DNA from: an uncultured Phycisphaerae bacterium
GTDB taxonomy: Bacteria > Planctomycetota > Phycisphaerae > UBA1845 > PWPN01
NCBI GenBank assembly: GCA_938005315.1
Contig: CALLOB010000111.1
Span: forward strand, 1 to 35,871
Direction of reading: 5' to 3'
Length of the DNA: 35,871 nucleotides
A program made the translations under genes and the position numbers. A model generated the notes under the pieces. It was not told where the DNA came from. It did no database searches and saw only the letters and a program-made list of their open reading frames with translations. Positions 3,460 to 32,869 of the stretch are shown here, piece after piece. Within the stretch, counting starts at the first letter, position 1. Every line of letters begins with the position of its first letter.

Positions 3460-4227
3460 TCACACGTCCAGATGCACCGACCGCCGCCCGTCCGGGCCGT
3501 GGTGGAGCACGAAGGTCGTCTCGTACAGCGCCCCCAGCACGGCCGGATCGAACAGCTGCTCCACGGCGGCGTCGAATACGACCGCCCCGTCCCGCAAGGC
3601 CACCACCCGCCCCCCGATGGCCGGCGGAAGGTTCAGGTCGTGGCAGACCACCACCAGCGTGCGACCTGCGGCGGCGTAACGGCGCATGATGCCGATCAGG
3701 TCGGCCTGGTGCCGCGGATCCAGGGCCGCGGTGGGTTCGTCCAGGAACATCGCCGGCGTGTCCTGGGCCAGGGCGGCGGCCAGCCAGACCTTCTGGCGTT
3801 CGCCGCCGGAAAGCGTGCCCACCGGCCGGTCCAGCAGGTTCCCCAGGCGACAGGCCTCGACCGCGCGATCGACAGCCTCCCGATCCGCCCTGTCCAGGCC
3901 CGCCAGCGGATGCACGTGGGCGTAACGACCCGACTGAACCACCTCGCGGACGGTGAACCCCAGGTGGCCCTCGTGCACCTGCGGCATGTACGCCACCCGC
4001 CGGCCGACCTCGCGCCGCCCCAGCCGGTCCAGCGGCGCGCCGTCCAGCCGAACTTCCCCCCGTTCGGCCGGCAGCAGCCCCAACAGGGCGGCCATCAGCG
4101 TGGATTTGCCCGCGCCGTTGGGGCCGATGATGCAGACCCGCTCGCCGTCGTCGATTTTTAGATCGACGTCGCGCAGGACCGTCCGCCCGATCCGAACCAC
4201 GGTCAAGCCCCGCGCCTCGATACCCAT
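3460..4227 (-). CDS. ABC transporter ATP-binding protein (FecE/BtuD type)
   Basis: This 255-aa ATPase powers the adjacent FecCD permease. Visible motifs are Walker A GPNGAGKS (35-42), Q-loop Gln83 (YMPQ), signature LSGGE (139-143), Walker B FLDEP (161-165), D-loop ALD and switch His196 (VVVCHDLN). The HDLN and MPQ forms are typical of iron-siderophore/cobalamin importers. There is no convincing ribosome-binding site before the ATG. A TAGAAT hexamer ends 6 nt upstream, which would place a transcript start at or very near the ATG; a leaderless message is possible but no good -35 accompanies it. The C-terminus ends only 7 nt before the permease start. Confidence 0.92.
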   Translation of the reverse strand: MGIEARGLTVVRIGRTVLRDVDLKIDDGERVCIIGPNGAGKSTLMAALLGLLPAERGEVRLDGAPLDRLGRREVGRRVAYMPQVHEGHLGFTVREVVQSGRYAHVHPLAGLDRADREAVDRAVEACRLGNLLDRPVGTLSGGERQKVWLAAALAQDTPAMFLDEPTAALDPRHQADLIGIMRRYAAAGRTLVVVCHDLNLPPAIGGRVVALRDGAVVFDAAVEQLFDPAVLGALYETTFVLHHGPDGRRSVHLDV

Positions 4228-29611: not shown

Positions 29612-29640
29612 TTGCCCGATCCGCCGGCCCCCACCATAAT
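29612..29640 (+). promoter_or_regulatory. Probable promoter for the RHH-zinc-cluster gene
   Basis: TTGCCC (29612-29617), a 17-nt spacer and CATAAT (29635-29640, five of six). It is the only AT-rich patch (accataataac) in the 147-nt divergent gap. The leader to the ATG would be about 45 nt. Confidence 0.5.
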
Positions 29641-29692
29641 AACCCGGTCGGGCCCCGGCGGCCCAGCGATCAGGCAACCTCGGAACCGCTCC

Positions 29693-30016
29693 ATGGCCCG
29701 GCAGAAACAGACCGTCGTTTCCTTCCGCGTCGATCACCACCTGGCCGAAATCCTCAACCACCTGCCCGACAAGTCCGGCTTCATCCGCGACGCGATCCTG
29801 CAGCGCTTCCACGCTGTCTGCCCCTTCTGCCGGGGCCGGGGGGTGATGCCCCAGGTGATCGCCCGCTGGTTCGAGGGTCGGCTGCCGGCGTACGAGTCCG
29901 TCGAGTGCCGGTGCTGCCATTATCTGTACCCGCTGGAGGTGGTGGCCAGGGCACGCCCGCCGCGCGGCCGGCCCTTCATCTGCCCCCACTGCCTCGAACA
30001 CGGGCACTCGCACTGA
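29693..30016 (+). CDS. Ribbon-helix-helix protein with Cys/His cluster, candidate zinc-responsive regulator
   Basis: This 107-aa protein has residues 7-40 (TVVSFRVDHHLAEIL..., KSGFIRDAILQRF) that fit a CopG/NikR-type ribbon-helix-helix DNA-binding domain: a beta strand with alternating contacts, helix A, a turn, and a helix B beginning SGFIRDAI. The C-terminal two thirds hold a metal-binding pattern: Cys43-x2-Cys46, Cys72, Cys74 and Cys75, Cys97-x2-Cys100, and a terminal HGHSH (His103, His105, His107). It stands 92 nt upstream of znuA on the same strand, with a znu promoter between. I infer that it senses zinc and represses znuACB, in a role taken by the Fur-family Zur elsewhere. Similar RHH proteins with CPxC pairs occur in planctomycetes and verrucomicrobia under generic CopG names. 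The ribosome site is weak (GGAA). Confidence 0.75.
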   Translation: MARQKQTVVSFRVDHHLAEILNHLPDKSGFIRDAILQRFHAVCPFCRGRGVMPQVIARWFEGRLPAYESVECRCCHYLYPLEVVARARPPRGRPFICPHCLEHGHSH

Positions 30017-30019
30017 CGG

Positions 30020-30047
30020 TTGACGCTGTATTACGAAGTCCTACAAT
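30020..30047 (+). promoter_or_regulatory. Promoter of the znuACB operon with internal dyad
   Basis: TTGACG (30020-30025), a 16-nt spacer and TACAAT (30042-30047, five of six). A short dyad, TGTA (30027-30030) and TACA (30042-30045) separated by 11 nt, spans the spacer and the -10, so a protein bound there would block RNA polymerase. The dyad is short and may be chance. Confidence 0.65.
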
Positions 30048-30108
30048 AGGGCGTCGGGCCGCGTCGGCCCGGGTCCCGCGGGGCCTATCGACCGGGGAGG
30101 CGACAGAC

Positions 30109-31146
30109 ATGCCCAGGAACCTGAGAATCCTTCGCTTCGGCGGAAGGTCCGCGATCCTCTCGTCGGTGCCGGTACTGGCAGCCGTGGCCTCGGGCTTCCT
30201 GTCCGCCTGCGGCCGTGAACCGGCCGACGACCGCTTCCGGGTGTTATGCACCTTTCTGCCGGTGTATGTCCTGACGCTCAACGTCGTCGGCGACGCGCCC
30301 GGCGTTTCGGTCGAACTGCTGCTGGACGCCAACACCGGCTGCCCCCACAGCCACGCCGCCCGGGCCTCGGACCTCAAGCGGGCCGCCTCCGCCGACCTGA
30401 TCCTGGCCAACGGCCTGGGCATCGAGCCGTTCCTCGACCAGCTGGCCGAGGCCGGCGGCCGGGCGAGGGTGGCTGTGATCACCGGCGACTGCGAACTGCT
30501 CGCGACCAGGGAGCCTGCTTCCGCCGAAACCGCCCCGGCGGCGCCCGAGACGGCCGGTTGCGACCATTCCGGTGACGACCATCACCACGACCATCACCAT
30601 CACCACGAGGCCACCCCGTTCAATCCCCACGTGTGGGTCTCGCCCGAACAGGCCGGAATCATGGTCCGGTCCATCGTGCGCGAGCTGTCGCGCGCCGATC
30701 CGGCCCGGGCCGGCGTCTACCGAGCCAACGGCGAGGCCTGCGTCGCCCGCCTGGAGGGCCTGCGCGACGAGATGAAAGCCGCCGCCGCCGGCTTTCGCTC
30801 GCGCAAGATCGTCACTTTCCACAACGCCTTCGACTACCTCGCCCGCGACCTGGGCCTGGAGATCGTCGCCACGCTGACCGTCAAGCCCGACGAGCCCATC
30901 CCCGCCGGCCGGCTGGCGGACGTGATTCGCCGGGCGAGGGAGGCCGGAGCCGCGGCCGTGTTCCGCGAGCCGGCCTACTCCGACCGTGCGGCCGAGACCG
31001 TGGCCCGCGACGCCGGCCTGCCGTTGTTCGAGCTGAATCCGCTCAACAGCCTGCCCGGGCAGCCCGATGCCGGGGCTTACGAGCGGGTGATGCGCGAGAA
31101 TCTGGACGTTCTTCGCAAGGCTCTGGGAACGGCCGCCCAGCCATGA
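30109..31146 (+). CDS. znuA: Zinc ABC transporter substrate-binding lipoprotein
   Basis: This 345-aa protein has a lipoprotein signal ending LSAC (Cys34). It is a cluster A-I metal-binding protein (ZnuA/TroA fold). Expected zinc ligands are a His of GCPHSHAA (His80 or His82), His174 in NPHVWVSP and His238 in TFHNAFDYLARDLGL, plus a carboxylate in the FREPAYSDRAAE region. Between the first and second ligands is a His-rich charged loop (about 153-166: HSGDDHHHDHHHHHE), a feature of zinc rather than manganese binders, thought to capture or sense zinc. Residues 137-150 are an Ala/Pro/Glu linker. GGAGG lies 8 nt before the ATG, and the last codon region overlaps znuC (ATGA). Confidence 0.92.
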   Translation: MPRNLRILRFGGRSAILSSVPVLAAVASGFLSACGREPADDRFRVLCTFLPVYVLTLNVVGDAPGVSVELLLDANTGCPHSHAARASDLKRAASADLILANGLGIEPFLDQLAEAGGRARVAVITGDCELLATREPASAETAPAAPETAGCDHSGDDHHHDHHHHHEATPFNPHVWVSPEQAGIMVRSIVRELSRADPARAGVYRANGEACVARLEGLRDEMKAAAAGFRSRKIVTFHNAFDYLARDLGLEIVATLTVKPDEPIPAGRLADVIRRAREAGAAAVFREPAYSDRAAETVARDAGLPLFELNPLNSLPGQPDAGAYERVMRENLDVLRKALGTAAQP

Positions 31147-31982
31147 GCCACGCGCCCCCAATCGCGACCGCCCAACAGTCCGCCTTGCGGCTGCACAACG
31201 TCTCCGTGACCCTCTCGGGCGTGCCGGTGCTCACCGGCGTGACCTGCGCCCCGGCCGCGGGGGTCATCAACGCGATCATCGGCCCCAACGGTGCCGGCAA
31301 GACCACGCTGCTGCGGGCGATTCTCGGGCTGGTTCCCCACACCGGCGTCATCGAGATCGGCAGGCGGCCCGACGGAAGACCGCTGAAACTGGGCTACGTG
31401 CCCCAGCGCCTGGACTTCGACCGCGGGATGCCGATCCGCGTGATGGACTTTCTCTGCCTGGGGCTGCAGCGCCGGCCGATCTGGCTGGGGCACACGCGCA
31501 AGGCCAGACTGCTGGCCGCAGAATGCCTCGAGCGCGTCGGGGGGCGGGCCTGGCCCGATCGCCGACTGGGCGTGCTCTCCGGCGGAGAGCTGCAGCGCGT
31601 GCTGCTGGCCGCGGCCCTGACCAGCCGGCCGGATGTTCTTCTGCTGGACGAGCCGGTGGCCGGCGTCGACGTGGCCGGCGAGGAACTCTTCTGCGATCTG
31701 CTGGCGTCGCTGCAGGCCGAGGGGCGCTACACCATGCTGCTGGTCAGCCACGACCTGAGCATCGTCACCCGCCACGCCCGCTACGTGATCTGTCTGAACC
31801 AGGCGGTGCAGTGCCAGGGGCCGGCCGTCGAGACGCTCAACGCCGAGAACCTCAAGGCTCTGTACCGCCACGACGTGGCCCTGTATGCCCACCACGGGGC
31901 CCACGAGGGCCACGCCCACGACTGCGGGGCGCCCGGCTGCGGATCCGAACCGCCGCCGGCCGGCCGGGAGGACCGGTCATGA
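31143..31982 (+). CDS. znuC: Zinc ABC transporter ATP-binding protein with His/Cys-rich C-terminal tail
   Basis: This 279-aa protein has Walker A GPNGAGKT (47-54), Q-loop Gln88 (YVPQ), signature LSGGE (145-149), Walker B LLLDEP (166-171) and switch His203 (VSHD). It drives zinc import through ZnuB. From residue 243 it carries an added tail with eight His and two Cys (HDVALYAHHGAHEGHAHDCGAPGC, read in two parts: HDVALYAHHGAH and EGHAHDCGAPGC), ending in a Pro/Gly/Arg stretch. Cytosolic His-rich tails on ZnuC-type ATPases have been linked to feedback control by zinc; here that role is inferred. Start and stop both overlap neighbouring genes by four bases (ATGA), so the three subunits are coupled. 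Confidence 0.92.
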   Translation: MSHAPPIATAQQSALRLHNVSVTLSGVPVLTGVTCAPAAGVINAIIGPNGAGKTTLLRAILGLVPHTGVIEIGRRPDGRPLKLGYVPQRLDFDRGMPIRVMDFLCLGLQRRPIWLGHTRKARLLAAECLERVGGRAWPDRRLGVLSGGELQRVLLAAALTSRPDVLLLDEPVAGVDVAGEELFCDLLASLQAEGRYTMLLVSHDLSIVTRHARYVICLNQAVQCQGPAVETLNAENLKALYRHDVALYAHHGAHEGHAHDCGAPGCGSEPPPAGREDRS

Positions 31983-32869
31983 CCGCGCTGTGGACGCTGT
32001 GGAACGACGTGCTGCTGCCGGCGGCCGATTCCGGCCTGCAGCGGCTGCTGCCGGAGGCCTGGCGCGACTTCCGTTTCATGCGTTACGCCCTGCTGGAGTG
32101 CCTGTTCCTGGCCCCTGTCTGCGCCATGATGGGTGTCAAGGTCGTGAACTTCCGCATGGCCTTCTTCTCGGATGCCATCTCGCATTCGGCGTTCGCGGGC
32201 ATCGCGGTGGGCTTTCTGCTGGCGGCCCTGCGGCCGGAATTCGACCCGCGAGTGGCGATGATCGTCTTCGGCCTGCTGGTCGGGCTGGGCATCGCCGTGG
32301 TCCGACGCCGCACCGACCTGTCCAACGACACGGTCATCGGCGTGTTCTTCAGCACCGTGGTGGCCTTCGGCATCGCGATCATCACCATCGGAAACCGCAC
32401 CGGCGAGTTCCAGCGCTACCTCTACGGCGATATCCTGACGCTGGATGCCGCCGACCTCGGGATCTCGGCCCTGCTGGCGGTGCTGGTGCTGGCACTGATG
32501 GCCTGCAACTTCAACCGGCTGACGCTCATCGGGCTCAATGACGAGCTGGCCGCCAGCCGGGGCATCCCCGTACGACTGCACGACTACCTGTTCGCCGTGC
32601 TGCTGGCCCTGGTGGTGACCGCCTCGATCCGGACGGCCGGCATCCTGCTGGTCACCGCCATGCTGATCGTGCCGGCCGCCGCGGCCCGCAACCTGGCCCG
32701 CTCCTGCGCCGCGATGTTCTGGTGGGCCATGGTCCTGGGCCTGCTGAGCGCCGTGGCCGGCACGCTGGCCTCGTTCACCGCCTGGTTCGACAACGTCGGC
32801 ACCGGCGCCGCCATCGTCCTGGCCGCCGCCGCGTGCTTCGCGGTCAGCCTGCTGTTCGCCAGGCGGTGA
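31979..32869 (+). CDS. znuB: Zinc ABC transporter permease
   Basis: This 296-aa protein of the ABC-3 permease family has about eight or nine membrane helices starting near residue 38 (ALLECLFLAPVCAMMG). Family features are FFSDAISHSAFAGIAVGF, in which the SHSAFAG stretch is the usual conserved block, GVFFSTVVAFGIAI, LYGDILTLDAADL and the C-terminal TAMLIVPAAAARNLA. It forms the inner-membrane channel for zinc. GGGAGG lies 7 nt upstream of the ATG, which overlaps the znuC stop. It ends the operon; a GGCCGA/TCGGCC hairpin follows at 32910. Confidence 0.92.
   Translation: MTALWTLWNDVLLPAADSGLQRLLPEAWRDFRFMRYALLECLFLAPVCAMMGVKVVNFRMAFFSDAISHSAFAGIAVGFLLAALRPEFDPRVAMIVFGLLVGLGIAVVRRRTDLSNDTVIGVFFSTVVAFGIAIITIGNRTGEFQRYLYGDILTLDAADLGISALLAVLVLALMACNFNRLTLIGLNDELAASRGIPVRLHDYLFAVLLALVVTASIRTAGILLVTAMLIVPAAAARNLARSCAAMFWWAMVLGLLSAVAGTLASFTAWFDNVGTGAAIVLAAAACFAVSLLFARR

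Follow-up and report, generated by a model that had tools for sequence, protein, structure and literature searches.

Textbooks assign the regulation of bacterial zinc uptake to the Fur-family repressor Zur, with AdcR, a zinc repressor of the MarR family, as the streptococcal exception. Metal sensing on a ribbon-helix-helix (RHH) scaffold is known from NikR, in which an RHH domain is combined with a C-terminal metal domain, the operator consists of two half-sites, and the metal allosterically activates DNA binding (PMC7949043); moreover, RHH dimers of omega/ParB of pSM19035 occupy 7-bp repeats in either orientation (PMC9499535). Here, we analyzed a stretch of 35,871 nucleotides (the window; contig CALLOB010000111.1) from an uncultured Phycisphaerae bacterium, in which a gene for a 107-aa protein lies directly upstream of the zinc-uptake genes znuA, znuC, and znuB. 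With a probability of roughly 85%, we consider this protein to be an RHH factor with a C-terminal Cys/His zinc domain that acts as a zinc-dependent repressor of znuABC.

The regulator gene occupies positions 29693-30016 of the plus strand (107 aa: MARQKQTVVSFRVDHHLAEILNHLPDKSGFIRDAILQRFHAVCPFCRGRGVMPQVIARWFEGRLPAYESVECRCCHYLYPLEVVARARPPRGRPFICPHCLEHGHSH), and its ATG agrees with the start position in homologues. It is followed on the same strand by znuA (30109-31146; Pfam ZnuA 2.5e-62), which encodes a zinc-binding protein with a His-rich loop, by znuC (31143-31982; ABC ATPase; Pfam ABC_tran 3.8e-21; NCBIfam ZnuC 2.2e-44, under the curated cut-off), and by znuB (31979-32869; ABC-3 permease; Pfam ABC-3 5.3e-58), with 4-bp overlaps between consecutive znu genes. 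In NCBIfam the three are metal ABC transporters, the best models being AztC, ZnuC, and AztB, all under their curated cut-offs. These coordinates and Pfam matches agree with the initial annotation of the locus, which had described a protein with CPFC, CRCC, CPHC, and HGHSH upstream of znuA-znuC-znuB and had placed a promoter between them: TTGACG-16-TACAAT (30020-30047, plus strand; -35 hexamer at 30020-30025, -10 hexamer at 30042-30047) is the top of three promoter-like sites that a consensus scan found in the region, where shuffles give 0.1. As this promoter sits 3' of the RHH gene, znuABC has its own promoter, separate from that of the RHH gene, and the further claim that the protein heads the operon holds for its position directly upstream, but not necessarily for its being the first gene of one transcript. 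For the RHH gene itself, the scan yielded a weaker promoter-like site, TTGCCC-17-CATAAT (29612-29640, plus strand), and an ATAATA-type -10 also precedes the RHH gene in two related loci (L032 and L035).

Homologues of the regulator were found by protein search in 40 of 61 related genomes and fall into two subfamilies: Subfamily A, which includes the window protein, comprises proteins of about 107 aa with a C-terminal CxHC..H.H.H, and subfamily B proteins of about 90-100 aa with the pattern CPLCxGTG..Q..HW..H..EC.DCHE..LVC. By profile comparison (hhalign: 99.5%, 2.4e-23, 85 columns) the two are of common descent, including the RHH part. Pfam RHH_1 matches all 22 subfamily B members (best 2e-5, above the curated cut-off) and, weakly, 4 of 16 members of subfamily A (best 0.089), and a Pfam scan of the window protein itself gave no RHH match above threshold. 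The RHH type stated in the initial annotation consequently stands through homology to subfamily B, and it is by this route that the window protein belongs, on the sequence criterion, to the RHH (CopG/Arc/MetJ) superfamily. The RHH domain spans approximately residues 5-40 and is followed by the Cys/His domain at residues 43-107 (coding positions 29819-30013, plus strand), which carries CPFC (C43-C46), CRCC (C72-C75), CPHC (C97-C100), and HGHSH (103-107). Ligand conservation across homologues is strict: C43, C46, C72, C75, and C97 are invariant in 111 aligned homologues, to which subfamily B adds two His residues at the positions of W59 and Y67 of the window protein (92/92), and subfamily A adds C74, H99, C100, H105, and H107 (19/19). 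The family therefore likely possesses a common Cys4 site plus a second metal site that is built differently in A and B. An AlphaFold2 monomer model (47 sequences; pLDDT 83) begins with an N-terminal stretch lacking assigned structure, continues with helices at residues 15-22 and 27-39, and ends in a small mixed domain. Profile searches against solved structures gave weak matches for both subfamily A (CTCF zinc fingers, 0.12) and subfamily B (anti-TRAP, 0.006; NikR, 0.38; a CopG RHH protein, 0.92). Neither the NikR family model nor the FUR domain (PF01475) matched the window protein or its homologues in Pfam or NCBIfam, and we found no model there that names the family.

For a view across phyla, GTDB contigs were scanned with a profile of the subfamily B alignment, which retrieved at least 273 relatives; all cross-phylum counts refer to the 80 best. 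Comparison of upstream regions revealed a recurring element of two pseudo-palindromic heptamers, GTAWTAC-N3-GTAWTAC, a perfect form of this predicted 17-bp operator being GTATTACAATGTAATAC. The exact 17-mer occurs 17 times in the 61 genomes, the reversed control not once, and with up to two mismatches the operator lies upstream in 70 of the 80 cross-phylum loci (dinucleotide shuffles: 0.1). Judging from the reversed control, about half of the 1-mismatch genome matches are to be expected by chance, and such matches were used only beside znuA or an RHH gene or where conserved in several genomes. Partner heptamers keep an offset of exactly 10 bp, with 47 cases on one side and 27 on the other, whereas every other offset occurs at most four times, and the centre bases combine as AA (26), TA (17), AT (17), and TT (8). 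As the centre is A or T in all combinations, a heptamer would work in either orientation; spacing and orientation fit one RHH dimer per heptamer, the second dimer being displaced by one helical turn. As a rule the operator is embedded in the promoter, where it sits between the -35 and -10 boxes and extends into the latter, and this is also its position in the window (GTATTAC-GAA-GTCCTAC, 30028-30044, plus strand), where the second heptamer overlaps the -10 hexamer. In subfamily B loci it is found upstream of the RHH gene, which makes the regulator gene the first of its own operon; the protein is therefore probably subject to its own control. In the subfamily A loci of the window's family the operator stands between the RHH gene and znuA. 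The arrangement TTGAC-N3-GTAWTAC is shared with related promoters, being kept in the window, L032, L035, L036, and L133 (before znuA) and in L034 (before a membrane protein); it led us to reject the idea that the subfamily A clade of family f1 uses another site. We set aside a second match to it in the window's own genome (G000:C25:1791), which falls within a coding frame.

Zur is the textbook regulator of such operons, and we asked which protein the operator accompanies. We scored the best upstream site at the znuA loci of the 61 genomes (background about 0.1% per 560 bp, from the reversed pattern): An operator with up to two mismatches is present in 34 of 40 genomes with the RHH protein and in 1 of 21 without it (p=6.7e-10, Fisher), a value that is indicative only, as the genomes are related and the test overstates their independence, the cross-phylum data being less affected. 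With the presence of a Fur-family protein, the znuA operator shows no association (p=0.34). Among nine RHH-positive genomes without a Fur match, eight have the operator, whereas 13 of 14 Fur-positive, RHH-negative genomes lack it at znuA and one has it. The strongest single argument comes from family f7, where the subfamily A gene lies away from znu and the operator nevertheless stands directly 5' of the distant znuA in 8 of 9 RHH-positive and 0 of 5 RHH-negative genomes: In this trans arrangement it is the protein, beyond mere gene proximity, that goes with the site. It is thus highly improbable that a Fur-family Zur represses znuABC through a conserved element and that the RHH protein is a hitch-hiking neighbour, even though the window's genome (3.76 Mb, 136 contigs) has a single Fur-family gene, on another contig, and a perfect GTATTAC-N3-GTAATAC is a palindrome of a size that a Fur-family dimer could bind. 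All orientations of the heptamers are seen, whereas a single inverted repeat would be fixed, and a promoter element dependent on a Fur-family protein, as expected of a Zur-regulated znuABC, was not found. The initial annotation had called the protein unlike Zur, and had named a genuine Zur with a Zur box before znuA as the observation that would overturn this; the one Fur gene is there, the element before znuA follows the RHH protein, and the claim is upheld by this as by the missing FUR domain.

Zinc as the signal is suggested by the target genes. All 45 parsed ZnuA proteins linked to the RHH regulator carry His, and none Glu, at the third metal-ligand position; the window ZnuA has His (HNAFDY) together with its His-rich loop. 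In cluster A-I binding proteins a His at this position goes with zinc, and a Glu with manganese. A partner COG0523 GTPase carries the CxCC motif of a class known for zinc starvation and scores to the zinc metallochaperone ZigA (6.5e-41, under the cut-off). Taken with the ligand conservation, these targets are consistent with a zinc-responsive repressor. They also make it improbable that the regulator of this importer responds to a metal other than zinc (manganese, nickel, iron, or cobalt) or to the redox state, although manganese as well as zinc is carried by cluster A-I ABC importers, nickel is the signal of NikR, the metal sensor known among RHH proteins, and Cys-rich sites can be redox sensitive. 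Slightly less probable still is a purely structural zinc in the C-terminal domain, with a constitutive or autoregulatory repressor and zinc entering regulation by another way: CPxCxGxG does resemble structural zinc knuckles, and 20 of 22 subfamily B members match DnaJ_CXXCXGXG and 9 of 22 Anti-TRAP, but C43, C46, C72, and C75 are accompanied by additional invariant possible ligands (C97 throughout, the two His of subfamily B, and C74, H99, C100, H105, and H107 of subfamily A), and the recognizable targets concern zinc. The sign of regulation could likewise be reversed, the protein being an activator, or an anti-repressor with zinc, and some RHH proteins do activate as well as repress, as described for AmrZ (PMC3325190). 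At its usual place within the promoter, however, from the -35/-10 spacer into the -10, the operator occupies a region where activators seldom bind, which renders activation very unlikely.

For the favored zinc-dependent repressor, we propose the following mechanism. In the zinc-replete cell, zinc held in the Cys/His domain would be required for DNA binding, and one dimer would sit on each pseudo-palindromic GTAWTAC heptamer; the two dimers, 10 bp or one helical turn apart and placed between and over -35 and -10, would block RNA polymerase and thereby repress znuABC and, in other genomes, further genes of zinc starvation. When zinc drops, the site would empty, the protein would release the DNA, and the zinc importer would be made.

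Several observations weigh against this proposal, besides the relatedness of the genomes mentioned above. The second heptamer of the window's operator is degenerate (2 mismatches), and one good heptamer only is present in G004, G009, and G012, and probably in the whole subfamily A group of f1. Two genomes (G013 and G059) have a subfamily A protein and no operator at znuA, and conversely G030 has a 2-mismatch site at znuA (L120) with no RHH homologue detected, the regulator having perhaps been lost there recently. True exceptions are six spirochaete loci (L175, L177, L179, L203, L216, and L221), which show neither an operator nor an adjoining zinc gene. Finally, the window monomer model matches solved structures weakly, with PHD fingers best (Z 3.7, about residues 40-106); none of the weak fold matches shown is an RHH chain, as might be expected, since the ribbon forms between two monomers and is beyond a monomer model. 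The two zinc ions of PHD fingers are no more than suggestive here, the fold being too weakly matched for a claim. As separate observations, the homologues of the six spirochaete loci keep the full Cys/His pattern, and G030 has four Fur-family matches.

With NikR, the regulator shares the RHH domain joined to a C-terminal metal domain, the operator of two half-sites, and, presumably, metal-activated binding, and the weak match of the subfamily B profile concerns the RHH part of E. coli NikR only (residues 9-48). It differs from NikR in its last 65 residues, a short Cys/His domain in place of the NikR metal domain with its His3Cys nickel site, in half-sites that lie 10 bp apart centre to centre and not widely spaced, and in its zinc-related targets; because of this C-terminal domain it is not a member of the NikR family. 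The NikR-like logic on a Cys/His cluster put forward in the initial annotation is accordingly supported as regards the combination of RHH and metal domain, with zinc itself being inferred. Zur and the regulator apparently do the same work, adjusting znuABC, COG0523 genes, and further uptake genes to zinc, yet Zur belongs to an unrelated protein family with a different operator, and the regulator and its operator occur in genomes without a Fur-family match. AdcR sets the precedent of another protein family having taken over zinc-uptake control, but is a winged-helix protein of the MarR fold and unrelated in sequence. The orientation-free heptamers recall the heptads of omega/ParB, which are contiguous, have another sequence, and are bound by a protein without a metal domain. 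The nearest NCBIfam models, the archaeal RHH regulators aCcr1 and CdrS (aCcr1 best, E 3e-7, far below the cut-off), match in the RHH part only, and we know of no zinc role for either.

The best 80 relatives stem from about a dozen phyla, nearly all from metagenome-assembled genomes: Planctomycetota, Spirochaetota, Syntrophales and other former Deltaproteobacteria, Nitrospinae, Zixibacteria, Glassbacteria, GN15, Gemmatimonadales, Bacillota, Thermoanaerobaculaceae, Lentisphaerae, Hydrogenedentota, and Omnitrophota. Unlike the subfamily B alignment, the window protein as a single query found no match in the GTDB contigs, and a tblastn search of plasmids found none either. We judged neighbourhoods from tblastn matches to znu, membrane-protein, and GTPase queries, because the gene caller had missed or mis-stranded some genes. 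In 64 of the 80 loci znu genes lie downstream on the same strand, and in the window's order znuA, znuC, and znuB come next after nearly all subfamily B homologues. Homologues mostly beside unrelated genes, which the initial annotation had named as evidence against its proposal, were thus not what we observed, with a restriction for the window's own subfamily A: Of about 17 genomes that carry it, only 4 (the window, L032, L035, and L036) have it next to znu, and its link to distant znuABC comes from the operator in f7. The 16 loci without znu include four with a His-rich membrane protein of 217-266 aa downstream (L200, L206, L218, and L220) and two with a COG0523 GTPase (L232 and L238); in L201, L214, L215, and L243 the contig ends less than 800 bp from the start of the regulator gene.

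Judged from sequence, the regulator is very probably an undescribed zinc switch that is used in place of Zur. Somewhat more broadly, we think it likely that it represents an undescribed family of zinc-sensing RHH repressors in a dozen phyla, which would serve as the main zinc-uptake regulator in many lineages where Zur is missing or unused and whose regulon, reached via GTAWTAC-N3-GTAWTAC, would include znuABC, COG0523 GTPases, the His-rich membrane protein, and an operon of DUF2946-like, pseudopilin, and secreted proteins. In metal domain, operator, and predicted regulon it differs from NikR, itself an RHH metalloregulator. Our literature search found no description of an RHH or CopG regulator of zinc uptake, which is weak evidence of absence, as most subscription papers lay outside its coverage. 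If confirmed, the family would be a third, unrelated family of zinc-uptake regulators with a defined operator; zinc operons of many uncultured phyla would be annotated differently, genomes without Fur would have a possible means of controlling zinc import, and a small sensor of some 90-110 residues would become available together with its predicted 17-bp operator. Moreover, the operator points to unnamed proteins, above all the membrane protein with the motif HHLPFSV, as candidate parts of zinc uptake.

This His-rich membrane protein (217-266 aa) takes the place of znuABC after the RHH gene or the operator in several genomes (L034:8485-9150, L113, L200:5311-5964, L220, L154, L155, L156, L206, and L218). 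Its motifs are EL.HH.PF, HP.H.L.SA, and PCC..DIVFPLL, no relative was found in Pfam, NCBIfam, or PDB, and we regard it as a candidate new zinc transporter. A second operator-linked operon is present in eight genomes of the window's order (L097, L101, L102, L103, L105, L110, L111, and L112): It encodes a DUF2946-like His/CxxC protein of about 90-120 aa (HH.H..CxxC..RAPP), as a rule with an N-methylated pseudopilin and secreted "HAGDxxVGR" proteins coming next. In the window's own genome (L094:3574, G000) and in G013 (L096:3626), which belong to two different families, a 1-mismatch operator precedes a gene for a DUF58-like membrane protein of about 400 aa, after which comes a gene for a membrane protein of about 760 aa; the N-terminal pieces of these proteins that were searched gave no clear Pfam match. 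The window itself contains a second ABC-type ATPase gene with weak ZnuC similarity (3460-4227, minus strand; 1.9e-17). Short RHH proteins of 55-70 aa, in which CPTCxGxG is kept and the rest of the metal domain is gone, are encoded at L073:5992-6141 and L074:6995-7150, the former gene adjoining a Fur-family gene. In the Spirochaetaceae loci L232 and L238, operator, RHH gene, and COG0523 GTPase gene lie in a row, and in L232 a second COG0523 gene follows about 2 kb further on.

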